Shown: positions 52,677 to 55,911 of the stretch, one piece after another | Layout: each line of letters opens with the position of its first letter | Position numbering within the stretch: position 1 is the first letter of the stretch | Assembly (NCBI GenBank): GCA_001896725.1 | Contig: MPPA01000033.1 | Location: 62,001-126,000, forward strand | Length of the DNA: 64,000 nt | Reading direction: 5' to 3' | DNA from: Methanococcoides sp. EBM-47 | Lineage (GTDB): Archaea > Halobacteriota > Methanosarcinia > Methanosarcinales > Methanosarcinaceae | Notes under the pieces: model-generated | What the model was told of the DNA's origin: nothing | What the model saw: the letters and a program-made list of their open reading frames with translations, nothing else | Databases searched by the model: none | Translations under genes and position numbers: made by a program

Positions 52677-53387
52677 TTAATCCCCAGGCTGAAAAGCTTT
52701 ACAGATGGCTTCTTTATCTACCTGTATATTTTTTTTCTTTTTGCACATGCCCTTCCTGTAAAAATTACATCTCTCACAACAGAACTCTTTACTTGCAAGC
52801 TTAGAAGCTACCTTCTCCCTCTGTTCATCGGTAATCCCAAAGTTCCTGCGATGTTTGTACAAATGCCAATCTTTGTAATACATTATGTTCGCAAGTGTGG
52901 ATATGGTAGGAGGGTCCCAGGAACTGTATCTCTTCTCTTTTTTTAAAGTACTATAGGCAGCCTGCTTTTCTCTTTCAGCCTGTCGTCTGTATTTTTCATC
53001 AACTATATCTTGAAGTTCTTTCCTTATTGCTCCAGCCTGCGGGTTTTTGGGATCAAAGGTCAAAGCTTTAGTAATGTAATTAAGTGCAGCCTCGTATTCC
53101 CTCAATTCTTTCAAGACCATGCTCTTATTGAAATAGATAGGATATAGGTTCTGCACTTTCCCAGAGCCGATCACAGCATCAAAGAACCGGATAGCTTCCC
53201 GGAACTTTCCGCAATGATAAGATAGAAGGCCCATTTTATTGAGAGCAGATACATTTTTCGGTTCCACTTCAAGGGCCATTCTGTAATAGTGCTCTTTTTT
53301 CTTCGGGTCTGTTTCTTTATCACCCATCAGCACATATCTATTAGAGACTGCTGCAGTTTCCTTTTTGAGAACTTCCTTTGAGTTCAT
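52677..53387 (-). CDS. TPR protein with C-terminal cysteine cluster
   Basis: 236 aa. Three TPR units (about 25-135: YRMALEVEPKNVSALNKMG, AIRFFDAVIG, ALNYITKALTFDPKNPQAG) then a basic linker and a cysteine-rich end, CCERCNFYRKGMC, with one more Cys near the end (AICKAF), which could bind zinc or an Fe-S cluster. Fourteen bases after the DUF2284 gene on the same strand, so probably co-transcribed with it. Function unknown; a protein-interaction role is likely. Confidence 0.8.
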   Translation of the reverse strand: MNSKEVLKKETAAVSNRYVLMGDKETDPKKKEHYYRMALEVEPKNVSALNKMGLLSYHCGKFREAIRFFDAVIGSGKVQNLYPIYFNKSMVLKELREYEAALNYITKALTFDPKNPQAGAIRKELQDIVDEKYRRQAEREKQAAYSTLKKEKRYSSWDPPTISTLANIMYYKDWHLYKHRRNFGITDEQREKVASKLASKEFCCERCNFYRKGMCKKKKNIQVDKEAICKAFQPGD

Positions 53388-53401: not shown

Positions 53402-53938
53402 TTATTCAATGAGCAGGATCCCAACACACTTGATGTCAGGAGGATCACAAAAAACTAAAGTTCCACCTACTGCTTCAATGATCTTTCCCACGTTGATACC
53501 AACAGCTTCCGGCGGGAATCTGCGCAGTTCCGGCTTTCTGCATTGTTCGGAGCACACATCACACTCGTTGCATGCACCAGGCCGCAACAACTGAGCATAG
53601 ATAAAACCTTTCCTGAAGGCAAGGTATTCCAGCTCCAGCATTTTATGGAAAGAGCCCCTGCGCAAAAGAGACCAAGTCCTTAAAATATCGCCCTCATGGG
53701 ACATATCATGCTCTTCGATCAGCAGCAGGGCATTATCGTATTCAAGAAGGATCTTTCTGAACTCATCGATATCCATGATATGGGGAGGACAGCTTAAGCG
53801 CTTACCATAACCTCTGCATCCATATTCACACTTTATACGTGCCCTGTTCTCCACAGGTATATCCGCTGTTTTTACAGGGTATGCTCTTAATCCGAGTTCC
53901 AAAGCCCTTCTAATGATCATTTCCTGCTTTTCACTCAT
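53402..53938 (-). CDS. DUF2284 metal-binding protein
   Basis: 178 aa. CEYGCRGYGKRLSCPPH (residues about 38-54) and CNECDVCSEQCRKPELRR (about 124-141) are the cysteine signatures of DUF2284, predicted to bind a metal or Fe-S cluster. It ends TLVFCDPPDIKCVGILLIE as usual. Between the nifSU-like pair and the TPR gene, on the same strand 22 bases after nifU, which suggests a role in Fe-S handling, but no activity is known. Confidence 0.9.
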   Translation of the reverse strand: MSEKQEMIIRRALELGLRAYPVKTADIPVENRARIKCEYGCRGYGKRLSCPPHIMDIDEFRKILLEYDNALLLIEEHDMSHEGDILRTWSLLRRGSFHKMLELEYLAFRKGFIYAQLLRPGACNECDVCSEQCRKPELRRFPPEAVGINVGKIIEAVGGTLVFCDPPDIKCVGILLIE

Positions 53939-53960: not shown

Positions 53961-54599
53961 CTAGCCTTCGGTAAAGACCACCTTTACCTCTTTGATATCC
54001 CAGAGGGTTTCCAGTTTTTCTACGAGGTCCTCCTTTATGGCATTTGCGAACTGGTGACCGGATGGCAGATCAAGGAGAACACGGACAATACCTTCTTTGA
54101 CCTCGATCTTTGTTACGAGTTCCGTACGAACTATATCAAGCCCTGCCATGGGATTCATGACATGCTTAAGCCTGCTTCTTACAACCTCTTCAGTGGTTGG
54201 TTCCTGCTCACTTACAAGGCCATGCTTTTCCTCATAGTCCCGTATCGCAGATCTCAAACCTTCTACAGCCAGCACTGAGCAATGCCTTTTTACGGGAGGC
54301 AAACCCCCCAGTTCTTCAGTGGCCTCCTGCCACGTGATCTTCTTTGCATCAGCTATGGTCTTTCCTTTTGCCATCTCGGTAATAATAGATGCAGTTGCTA
54401 TATTGGAGGCGCATCCATAGGATTCGAACTTTATATCATCTATCACAGTGGTCTTAGGGTCCACTTTCAGATATATTGCAACCATATCCCCACAGGCAGG
54501 GCTGCCTTCAAGACCTTTTCCATCAGCATCTTCCAGCTTGCCCACGTTCTTTGGGTCGCGGAAATGCTCCAAGACCTTCTCAGTATAAGGAAACTTCAA
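53961..54599 (-). CDS. nifU: Fe-S scaffold: IscU/NifU_N domain fused to a MIP18 (DUF59) domain
   Basis: 212 aa from TTG at 54599: AGGTGAT, inside the nifS stop region, is spaced about 5 bases before it and the protein then opens KFPYTEKVLEHFRDPKNVG. Scaffold cysteines: SPACGD, YGCASNIA and KRHCSVLAVEGL, with the usual Asp. After a linker (about 125-150) a second domain DIVRTELVTKIEVKEGIVRV and DLPSGHQFANAI matches DUF59/MIP18. Scaffold plus carrier-like domain in one chain suggests assembly and delivery by the same protein. It follows nifS by 4 bases. Confidence 0.88.
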   Translation of the reverse strand: MKFPYTEKVLEHFRDPKNVGKLEDADGKGLEGSPACGDMVAIYLKVDPKTTVIDDIKFESYGCASNIATASIITEMAKGKTIADAKKITWQEATEELGGLPPVKRHCSVLAVEGLRSAIRDYEEKHGLVSEQEPTTEEVVRSRLKHVMNPMAGLDIVRTELVTKIEVKEGIVRVLLDLPSGHQFANAIKEDLVEKLETLWDIKEVKVVFTEG

Positions 54600-54603
54600 A
54601 TTA

Positions 54604-55776
54604 TCACCTGCTATTAGCATATAACGGACTGATCTCTCTAAGTTTTTCCACGATCTCCTTCAGGGCACTCAGAACTGCATCCACATCTTCCATTGTGTTA
54701 TACCTTCCAAAAGTGAATCTTAAAGAACCATGCGCCCTTTCATGATCACCACCGATACCCAGGATCACATGGCTGGCTTCCAGTGACCTGCTAAAACATG
54801 CAGATCCGGTACTCACCGCAAAACCTCGCATATCCAGATGCAGTGTCATAGATTCTCCTTCCACGTAATGGAATGTGAGGTTGGCGTTCTGCGGTGTGCG
54901 ATCGATGCGGCTACCATTAAGGGTTACGTGGGGAATGTCCTCCAGGGCTTTGGTGATAATATGGTCACGCATTCTGGCAAGGGAGGCATTTTCTTCGGGG
55001 GTTACAAGTTCCACGGCCTTTGCAAAACCCACTGCTCCCGGAATATTTTCCGGACCAGCTCTGCGGTTTGATTCCTGGTAGCCTCCATCCATCCATTTTT
55101 CCAGAGGTGTACCTTCACGTATATAGAGGGCACCAACTCCCCTTGGGCCGTGTATAGTGTGTGCGGATATCGTTACCAGGTCCACAGGGACCTTTTTCAT
55201 GTCCAGCGGTACACGGGTGAACGTGTGTGTAGCATCAGTATGCAGAAGTACATCTTTATCACTGCACACTTCTGCAATCGCCTTGATATCCTGTATCGTA
55301 CCTATCTCCTGGTTGGCATGCTGTATGGATACCAACGCTGTTCCTTTTGTAATAAGGCTGTCAAGCTGCTCCAGATCCACAGCCCCCTCATTATCCACAT
55401 TCAGGTAGTCGACCTTCGACCCTTGTCTTTCCAGACCCTTTGCGGTATTGAGCACCGGGAAATCCTCTATTCTGGATATTATTAAATGTGAGCCTTTTTT
55501 CTTCTTTAGGGCACCTATAACGCCCTTGAGGGCCATGTTGCTGGATTCGGTCTCTCCTGAAGTGAACACCAGTTCTTCTGCCGACGCTCCCAGGGTCCTT
55601 GCTATGGACCCTCTGGCAGCCATAAGCCCTTCTTTGGCATCTATTCCCATGGAGTAGCCAAACTCTGAGGTTGCCACTGCATAGGTATCAAAGAAATATG
55701 GTTTCATAGCTTTCAGGACACGTTCATCCAGACGAGTGCTGGCTGCGTTGTCCAGATAGGTTATCTTGTCAAGCAT
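54604..55776 (-). CDS. nifS: NifS/IscS-like protein lacking the PLP lysine
   Basis: 390 aa, class V aminotransferase fold: YLDNAASTRLD, FTSGETESSNMALKG, HTDATHTF (D181) and the cysteine loop STGSACFSRSLEASH with the sulfur-carrying Cys. But the lysine that forms the Schiff base in SAHK-x-x-GPKG is Thr207 (SAHTIHGPRG), the PLP-stacking His of the usual S-x-x-EH motif is Asp (RIEDFPVLN), and the Gln two residues after the cofactor Asp is His. A. fulgidus IscS is known to lack this lysine (Asp) and to have no desulfurase activity. Here too desulfuration is doubtful; the protein may act as an IscU partner using external sulfide. Confidence 0.9.
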   Translation of the reverse strand: MLDKITYLDNAASTRLDERVLKAMKPYFFDTYAVATSEFGYSMGIDAKEGLMAARGSIARTLGASAEELVFTSGETESSNMALKGVIGALKKKKGSHLIISRIEDFPVLNTAKGLERQGSKVDYLNVDNEGAVDLEQLDSLITKGTALVSIQHANQEIGTIQDIKAIAEVCSDKDVLLHTDATHTFTRVPLDMKKVPVDLVTISAHTIHGPRGVGALYIREGTPLEKWMDGGYQESNRRAGPENIPGAVGFAKAVELVTPEENASLARMRDHIITKALEDIPHVTLNGSRIDRTPQNANLTFHYVEGESMTLHLDMRGFAVSTGSACFSRSLEASHVILGIGGDHERAHGSLRFTFGRYNTMEDVDAVLSALKEIVEKLREISPLYANSR

Positions 55777-55911
55777 ATTATGTCTCCGTTAAATGAAAAG
55801 AATAATACTGGCATCTTTTGTTTCATGATATATGTGCCTACTGCCCCATGCTCATCTATCCGGTCCGTGTTTGATGCCTGATGTGTGCCGATCACTATGA
55901 TTTCATCTTAT

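Follow-up and report, generated by a model that had tools for sequence, protein, structure and literature searches.

Sulfur is generally taken to enter iron-sulfur (Fe-S) clusters by way of cysteine desulfurase. A locus of Methanococcoides sp. EBM-47 bears on where methanogens and other anaerobes obtain their cluster sulfur: it encodes a NifS/IscS-fold protein, here called NifS*, in which the lysine that binds pyridoxal 5'-phosphate (PLP) is replaced, followed by a fusion of NifU with a MIP18 domain. From where might such a protein obtain its sulfur? The locus was analysed within a stretch of 64,000 nucleotides (the window; contig MPPA01000033.1, positions 62,001 to 126,000), in whose numbering all positions are given. 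Because the gene is coupled to genes for TusA and DsrE2 in its relatives, carrier-bound persulfide is proposed as the source. In the preferred reading, which is given a probability of roughly 0.48, a PLP-independent NifS* docks NifU and passes on sulfur from TusA/DsrE2 persulfide. The features of nifS* are as follows, with single residues placed by alignment.

54604..55776, minus strand: nifS*, intact open reading frame of the NifS/IscS-fold protein (390 aa) without the PLP lysine
55156..55158, minus strand: codon of Thr207, at the position of the PLP Schiff-base lysine (E. coli K206)
55462..55464, minus strand: codon of Asp105, at the position of the ring-stacking His (E. coli H104)
55309..55311, minus strand: codon of Gln156, at the position of E. 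coli N155
55225..55227, minus strand: codon of His184, at the position of E. coli Q183
54796..54798, minus strand: codon of Cys327, the sulfur-carrying cysteine of the Cys loop (E. coli C328), intact

Active-site residues and their conservation

NifS* was matched by the Pfam profile Aminotran_5 (PF00266) with 238.9 bits. On the NCBIfam NifS equivalog TIGR03402 it scored 430.1 bits, under the cut-off of 530.75, and the ordinary NifS of the same genome scored 550.8 bits, above it. An AlphaFold model of NifS* had a mean predicted local distance difference test score of 75.6, with values below 50 at the N-terminus and Cys loop, and was aligned with E. coli IscS (3lvm) at Z 38.2 and with Archaeoglobus fulgidus IscS (4eb7) at Z 36.0; in the predicted structure the IscS fold is kept. 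The nearest solved structures by sequence were those of A. fulgidus IscS (4eb5/4hvk/4r5f).

Residue numbering follows IscS of E. coli K-12, and the PLP roles given to its active-site residues are those we take them to have. The initial annotation had named three replacements, Lys to Thr, the stacking His to Asp and Gln to His near the cofactor Asp; all three were present in the alignment (K206 to T207, H104 to D105, Q183 to H184), and a fourth, N155 to Q156, was found beyond them. The position of T243 is occupied by Leu, Val or Ile in the alignment of NifS* with its homologs, which together form the Thr class. Equivalents of T76, D180, H205, R354 and C328 are retained in NifS*, and that of S203 is mostly retained among the Thr-class homologs. 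The Cys loop had been described as intact, and the C328 equivalent was indeed present in the window protein and in 93/93 distinct homologs. By this alignment a residue needed for desulfurase chemistry is absent from NifS*, and we infer that the protein has no desulfurase activity.

Conservation was surveyed at two levels. In a search of 60 genomes (window genome included), orthologs of at least 69% identity were found in 21, all of them Methanosarcinaceae; every one of the 21 shared the four replacements (Thr, Asp, His and Gln) and was followed by the NifU-MIP18 fusion. The wide scan covered one genome per species (84,980 species) with the peptide patterns YAVATSEF or HTDATH[ST][FY] and yielded 199 relatives, and the best 80 of these were examined. 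Among these best 80 of 199, the PLP lysine site held Thr in 79, Leu in one and Lys in none, and a NifU fusion lay 3' of nifS* in all 80, truncated by the end of the contig in one of them. Across the 93 distinct homologs, H104 was replaced by Asp, N155 by Gln and Q183 by His in 93/93; most of these homologs came via the two patterns, so that the Q183 change is partly selected, the other sites lying outside the patterns. For Lys, Thr or Asp at the lysine site, a comparison that had been proposed for archaeal NifS proteins, the outcome was Thr in 92/93 window-type homologs (Leu in one, Lys in none) and Asp in a separate A. fulgidus class.

Because they are fixed in 93 distinct homologs, the changes are not a matter of chance or sequencing error. 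Sequencing error and a local pseudogene were both excluded by this fixation together with ratios of nonsynonymous to synonymous substitution rates (dN/dS) of 0.04-0.08. Archaea among the relatives comprised Methanosarcina, Methanolobus, Methanococcoides, Methanohalophilus, Methanofastidiosum, Altiarchaeales, Heimdallarchaeota and Thermoplasmata; the bacteria comprised Dehalococcoidia and other Chloroflexota, Atribacteria and Syntrophales, with further taxa besides. Relatives outside Methanosarcinaceae were mostly metagenome-assembled genomes (MAGs), and two were Dehalococcoidales chromosomes. Identity of NifS* was 85-93% within the genus and 67-72% across phyla. This cross-phylum conservation, together with the mixed taxa in a tree whose inner branches are weakly supported, suggests horizontal spread of nifS*.

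Linkage to TusA and DsrE2

Two small genes lay directly upstream of nifS* on the same strand in most relatives, encoding TusA (PF01206) and DsrE2 (PF13686). The TusA and DsrE families are sulfur carriers. The 139-aa upstream neighbour had also been considered as an IscR/Rrf2 regulator; this identity was excluded, the protein being DsrE2. A locus was scored as linked when tblastn and hidden Markov model scans placed TusA and/or DsrE2 no more than 2 kb away and on the strand of the NifS gene. Loci entered the linkage table if 900 nt or more of upstream sequence existed, NifS duplicates with identical last 300 aa being dropped. The window locus lies outside this table and would count as one Thr-class locus without carriers.

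A carrier gene was adjacent in 79/87 distinct loci of the Thr/Leu class, upstream in 76 of the 79, and all eight carrier-less loci were Methanococcoides-type. For the Asp/Glu class (A. fulgidus type) the count was 39/40 distinct loci, and a DsrE-type gene precedes iscS of A. fulgidus itself by 4 nt. Lys-containing loci had an adjacent carrier in 3/68 cases; these three scored only 183-186 bits on the NifS profile and were SufS-type, and none of the Lys-containing proteins above 400 bits on that profile (n = 63) was among the carrier-linked loci. Asp-class loci and most Lys loci were drawn from a similarity ranking against A. fulgidus IscS and from prior searches, with neighbours ignored. A Fisher p of 9e-38 was obtained for carrier linkage; it ignores relatedness and is descriptive only.

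The carriers keep their functional motifs. The CPxP motif of TusA was retained in 77/78 (Thr class) and 38/39 (Asp class) proteins, and the cysteine of the DsrE-type protein in 77/77 and 27/27, respectively. In most of those tested with Pfam models the best fit differed by class: Thr-class DsrE proteins fitted DrsE_2 far above DsrE, and Asp-class proteins fitted the two about equally or DsrE better, as if the DsrE genes of the two Lys-less classes had been recruited separately.

Each Lys-less class formed a supported clade (Thr 100/100; Asp 100/99). The best tree set the two apart, a single joint clade being still compatible (approximately unbiased test, p 0.294), and a preliminary tree of 129 rows had a weak backbone. 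The residues changed also differ: H104, N155, Q183, K206 and T243 in the Thr class, with H205 and R354 kept, and Q183, H205, K206 and R354 in the Asp class, with H104 kept and T243 mostly kept. On these grounds we lean to two separate losses of lysine. The nearest Lys-containing relative was an Altiarchaeales paralog (locus L106), placed beside the Thr class (99/93). This locus contains a TusA-DsrE2-NifS*-NifU operon and then, within 3 kb, a Lys-containing NifS and a plain NifU.

Sulfur source of the NifS*-NifU pair

In the proposed relay NifS* would be a PLP-independent descendant of a cysteine desulfurase, with fold, NifU partner and Cys loop kept and the making of persulfide lost. For the majority of members, persulfide of TusA and/or DsrE2 would pass to Cys327 of the NifS* dimer, or straight to NifU docked on NifS*; NifU, with three Cys and an Asp, would then assemble the cluster and the fused MIP18 domain would aid cluster delivery. 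The carriers are perhaps charged from sulfide or polysulfide and sulfide may remain the ultimate source, in which case the carrier step would unite the relay with the sulfide-fed idea of the initial annotation. The direction of sulfur flow and the role of MIP18 are what we infer.

Known systems were compared on the basis of excerpts of the papers cited. The relay resembles E. coli IscS-TusA-TusBCD, in which the Cys loop of an IscS-fold protein exchanges sulfur with TusA and DsrE-type proteins take part (PMC2854127, PMC3397948). E. coli IscS makes persulfide from cysteine and exports it for tRNA thiolation, whereas the flow proposed here runs inward to NifU. In the E. coli IscS-TusA crystal TusA Cys19 lies ∼4 Å from IscS Cys328, and IscU occupies a surface of IscS that does not overlap that of TusA (PMC2854127). 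DsrE of A. vinosum was persulfurated by sulfide alone in vitro (PMC3397948). The minimal ISC system (MIS) of anaerobes, like the pair here, has two components, one NifS-like and one NifU-like; in the excerpts available it is described with a cysteine desulfurase, whereas NifS* has no catalytic lysine (PMC12192291).

The window species itself has lost the carriers, and one remnant was located by comparison with sister genomes.

55789..55868 (approximate extent), minus strand: frameshifted 3' stub of dsrE2

TusA had no match in the window genome, and full-length DsrE2 was not found there, only a weak 29-bit DrsE_2 match elsewhere and the stub at the locus. Relative to sister genome G002, ∼1.45 kb is missing upstream of nifS*: between the stub and about 55909 (stretch 55777-55911), tusA, most of dsrE2 and a metallophosphatase gene of the sister genomes are absent. 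Both tusA and dsrE2 were present in the other five genus members examined and absent in the window genome; the deletion may be an assembly fault. For nifS*, dN/dS was 0.07 between the window and its nearest relative and 0.04-0.08 over all 15 pairs; for nifU-mip18 it was 0.041 (window-G002) versus 0.023 (G002-G005). Both genes are under strong purifying selection in the window species despite carrier loss. Either the window pair would still work without carriers (with free sulfide or, in trans, the ordinary NifS as another supplier), or its release from selection would be only recent. G012, a genome of the same family (99% complete), had neither NifS* nor an IscS-type NifS; TusA was missing too and DrsE_2 was matched just by a short broken stretch, a pattern suggestive of joint loss.

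Several points weigh against the relay. Because nifS*-nifU stays under selection without them in the window genome, the carriers are no absolute requirement. In the three Methanococcoides-type genomes tested, the tusA-dsrE2 pair lies elsewhere in the genome. Of the residues that contact TusA in E. coli IscS, conservation in the Thr class extends to R55 but not to W45 or R237. Linkage is no proof of sulfur flow, which could also run the other way, or the linked genes could share a downstream use. The Fisher p overstates the independent evidence, as the Lys-less classes may go back to only one or two origins; with so few, the linkage is strong in maintenance and not in independent events.

The first alternative is docking of the A. 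fulgidus kind, in which NifS* gives only a Cys ligand and a surface, free sulfide feeds NifU and TusA/DsrE2 serve another pathway. A. fulgidus IscS-IscU (PDB 4eb5, 4eb7, 4hvk, 4r5f) shares the Lys loss, the NifU-type partner and the upstream DsrE-type gene, and its IscS is the nearest solved relative. This explanation is close to the model of the initial annotation, whose comparison with A. fulgidus was apt and already in print for the Methanosarcina acetivorans counterpart: in the excerpts of Deere et al. 2020 (PMC7585200), IscS1 (MA0808), encoded with IscU1 (MA0807), is without the catalytic lysine and possibly acts like A. fulgidus IscS. The same source reports that IscS1 was detected in the proteome and that its expression alone in E. 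coli gave inclusion bodies. Like that pair, the window pair joins a Lys-less IscS with an STGSACFS loop to a ∼24-kDa IscU. The assignment was made through published sizes and motif positions, because a Methanosarcina-like locus (G035, L051; 42.3 kDa with the loop at residue 318, NifU 24.3 kDa with Cys 46/73/117) agrees within one residue or 0.1 kDa with the published values (42.2 kDa, loop 318; 24.2 kDa, Cys 45/72/116; PMC7585200), and by this match the window pair is the counterpart of IscS1/IscU1.

Docking alone would also suit a window species that does without TusA/DsrE2. A. fulgidus IscS differs, however, in belonging to a separate clade and in having Lys replaced by Asp, His205 by Asn and Gln183 by Ala, the stacking His kept and Arg354 lost; at K206, H205 and Q183 the window protein has Thr, His and His, and its NifU is fused, whereas A. 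fulgidus IscU has no MIP18 fusion. Docking leaves unexplained why TusA/DsrE genes stand beside both Lys-less classes and not beside Lys-containing IscS, and the A. fulgidus gene is itself among those with a DsrE-type neighbour. It is considered rather unlikely.

A second alternative, in which persulfide exchange with an ordinary desulfurase supplies the pair in trans, draws on the gene content of the window genome (2.18 Mb, 53 contigs, 99.97% complete). Besides lacking TusA/DsrE2, this genome encodes a Lys-containing NifS with its own small NifU, a SufS-like protein and SufB/D, and the description "desulfurase-free" therefore does not hold for it. Elsewhere the pair occurs in genomes in which no such donor was matched. 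The Lys-less protein was the sole NifS/SufS-class match in 6/16 genomes (two Methanofastidiosum and one each of Atribacteria, Methanothrix, Syntrophaceae and Dehalococcoidia), the next match in the four of these checked being a phosphoserine or related aminotransferase, and at a stricter threshold (E ≤ 1e-40) a further 4/20 genomes had a single NifS/SufS-class match. In sum, 10/36 non-Methanosarcinaceae genomes, mostly MAGs of undocumented completeness, were without a second match. A separate normal NifS, which had been raised as the possible true partner, is thus not obligatory, and where present it adjoins its own NifU. Feeding in trans is accordingly distinctly unlikely.

Within the family, no Lys-containing IscS-type match was found in genomes G007, G020, G026, G031 (99% complete) and G019 (83%); these do hold weaker SufS-like matches of ∼26-30% identity. 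SufB/D had no match in one Atribacteria MAG (G067) or in the two Dehalococcoidales chromosomes (G060, G061).

NifS* might also still be a PLP or pyridoxamine 5'-phosphate protein with another chemistry, or bind another ligand in a rebuilt pocket. The phosphate cup still has T76 and H205 (and mostly S203), Asp180 and Arg354 are likewise retained, and invariance at the replaced positions resembles a rebuilt site more than decay; yet K206, H104, Q183, N155 and T243 have all been replaced, and this explanation is given a smaller chance still. A decaying duplicate without function, as paralogs in the same genome, the loss of tusA and dsrE2 and the somewhat raised dN/dS of NifU-MIP18 on window pairs might suggest, is very improbable in view of the low dN/dS of NifS* in all 15 pairs, its identity within the genus and across phyla, and the presence of the M. 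acetivorans counterpart in the proteome (PMC7585200).

The carrier-fed relay is thus preferred. Of the sulfide-fed, desulfurase-free route in the initial annotation, the missing lysine, the pairing with NifU-MIP18 and the existence of genomes without another match were borne out; the TusA/DsrE2 coupling points instead to carrier-bound persulfide. Loss of the lysine as such has been known since 2020, as the excerpts of PMC7585200 state. The additions made here, which did not turn up in searches of open-licence PMC papers, are the four-residue signature fixed across anaerobes, the near-universal NifU-MIP18 partner and the TusA/DsrE link of both Lys-less classes.

More tentatively, and with the odds against it, these may belong to a widespread cysteine- and PLP-independent Fe-S pathway of anaerobic archaea and bacteria, a NifS-fold relay from TusA/DsrE to NifU that arose twice, once as the Thr class with NifU-MIP18 and once as the Asp class, seen in Archaeoglobus and elsewhere in the phylum to which the window species belongs. 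Such a pathway could be the sulfide-linked Fe-S route of Methanosarcina, where SUF or IscSU2 deletions have little effect; SufBC and IscSU2 are each dispensable in M. acetivorans, according to the excerpts of PMC10500019 and PMC7585200. Through the linkage, Lys-less IscS proteins, among them the structurally characterised one of A. fulgidus, also gain a concrete candidate sulfur donor that is open to testing.

The NifU-MIP18 partner and adjoining genes

The partner was named as a NifU-MIP18 fusion from the outset; both domains were matched in Pfam, and the pairing is conserved in relatives.

53961..54620, minus strand: nifU-mip18, scaffold with Cys43/70/114 and a C-terminal MIP18 domain
53979..54191, minus strand: MIP18-like domain (FeS_assembly_P) of the fusion, residues 144-214

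The window fusion scored 150 bits on NifU_N and 47.5 bits on FeS_assembly_P (cut-off 23.5). Its likely start is TTG at 54599, just past the end of nifS*; the alternative ATG at 54620 would overlap that end. Cys43, Asp45, Cys70 and Cys114 were invariant in 21/21 same-family orthologs, and the three cluster Cys motifs were present in 92/92 scored NifU-MIP18 proteins. The canonical MIP18/SufT motif is, we assume, TxxxCP. In the fused domain the expected Cys-Pro site reads His-Gln: among 110 open reading frames HQ was found in 88, NQ in 4 and HI in 1, and 17 were unmatched by the pattern. In the NifU beside the ordinary NifS (L002:2652-3026, G000 contig C25) the first cluster cysteine is replaced (NPADGD), while NifU-MIP18 keeps all three.

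Downstream of nifU-mip18 lie genes for a DUF2284 protein (53402-53938, minus strand), with homologs in 18/99 loci, and for a TPR protein with a Cys-rich end (52677-53387, minus strand), with homologs in 9/99 loci.
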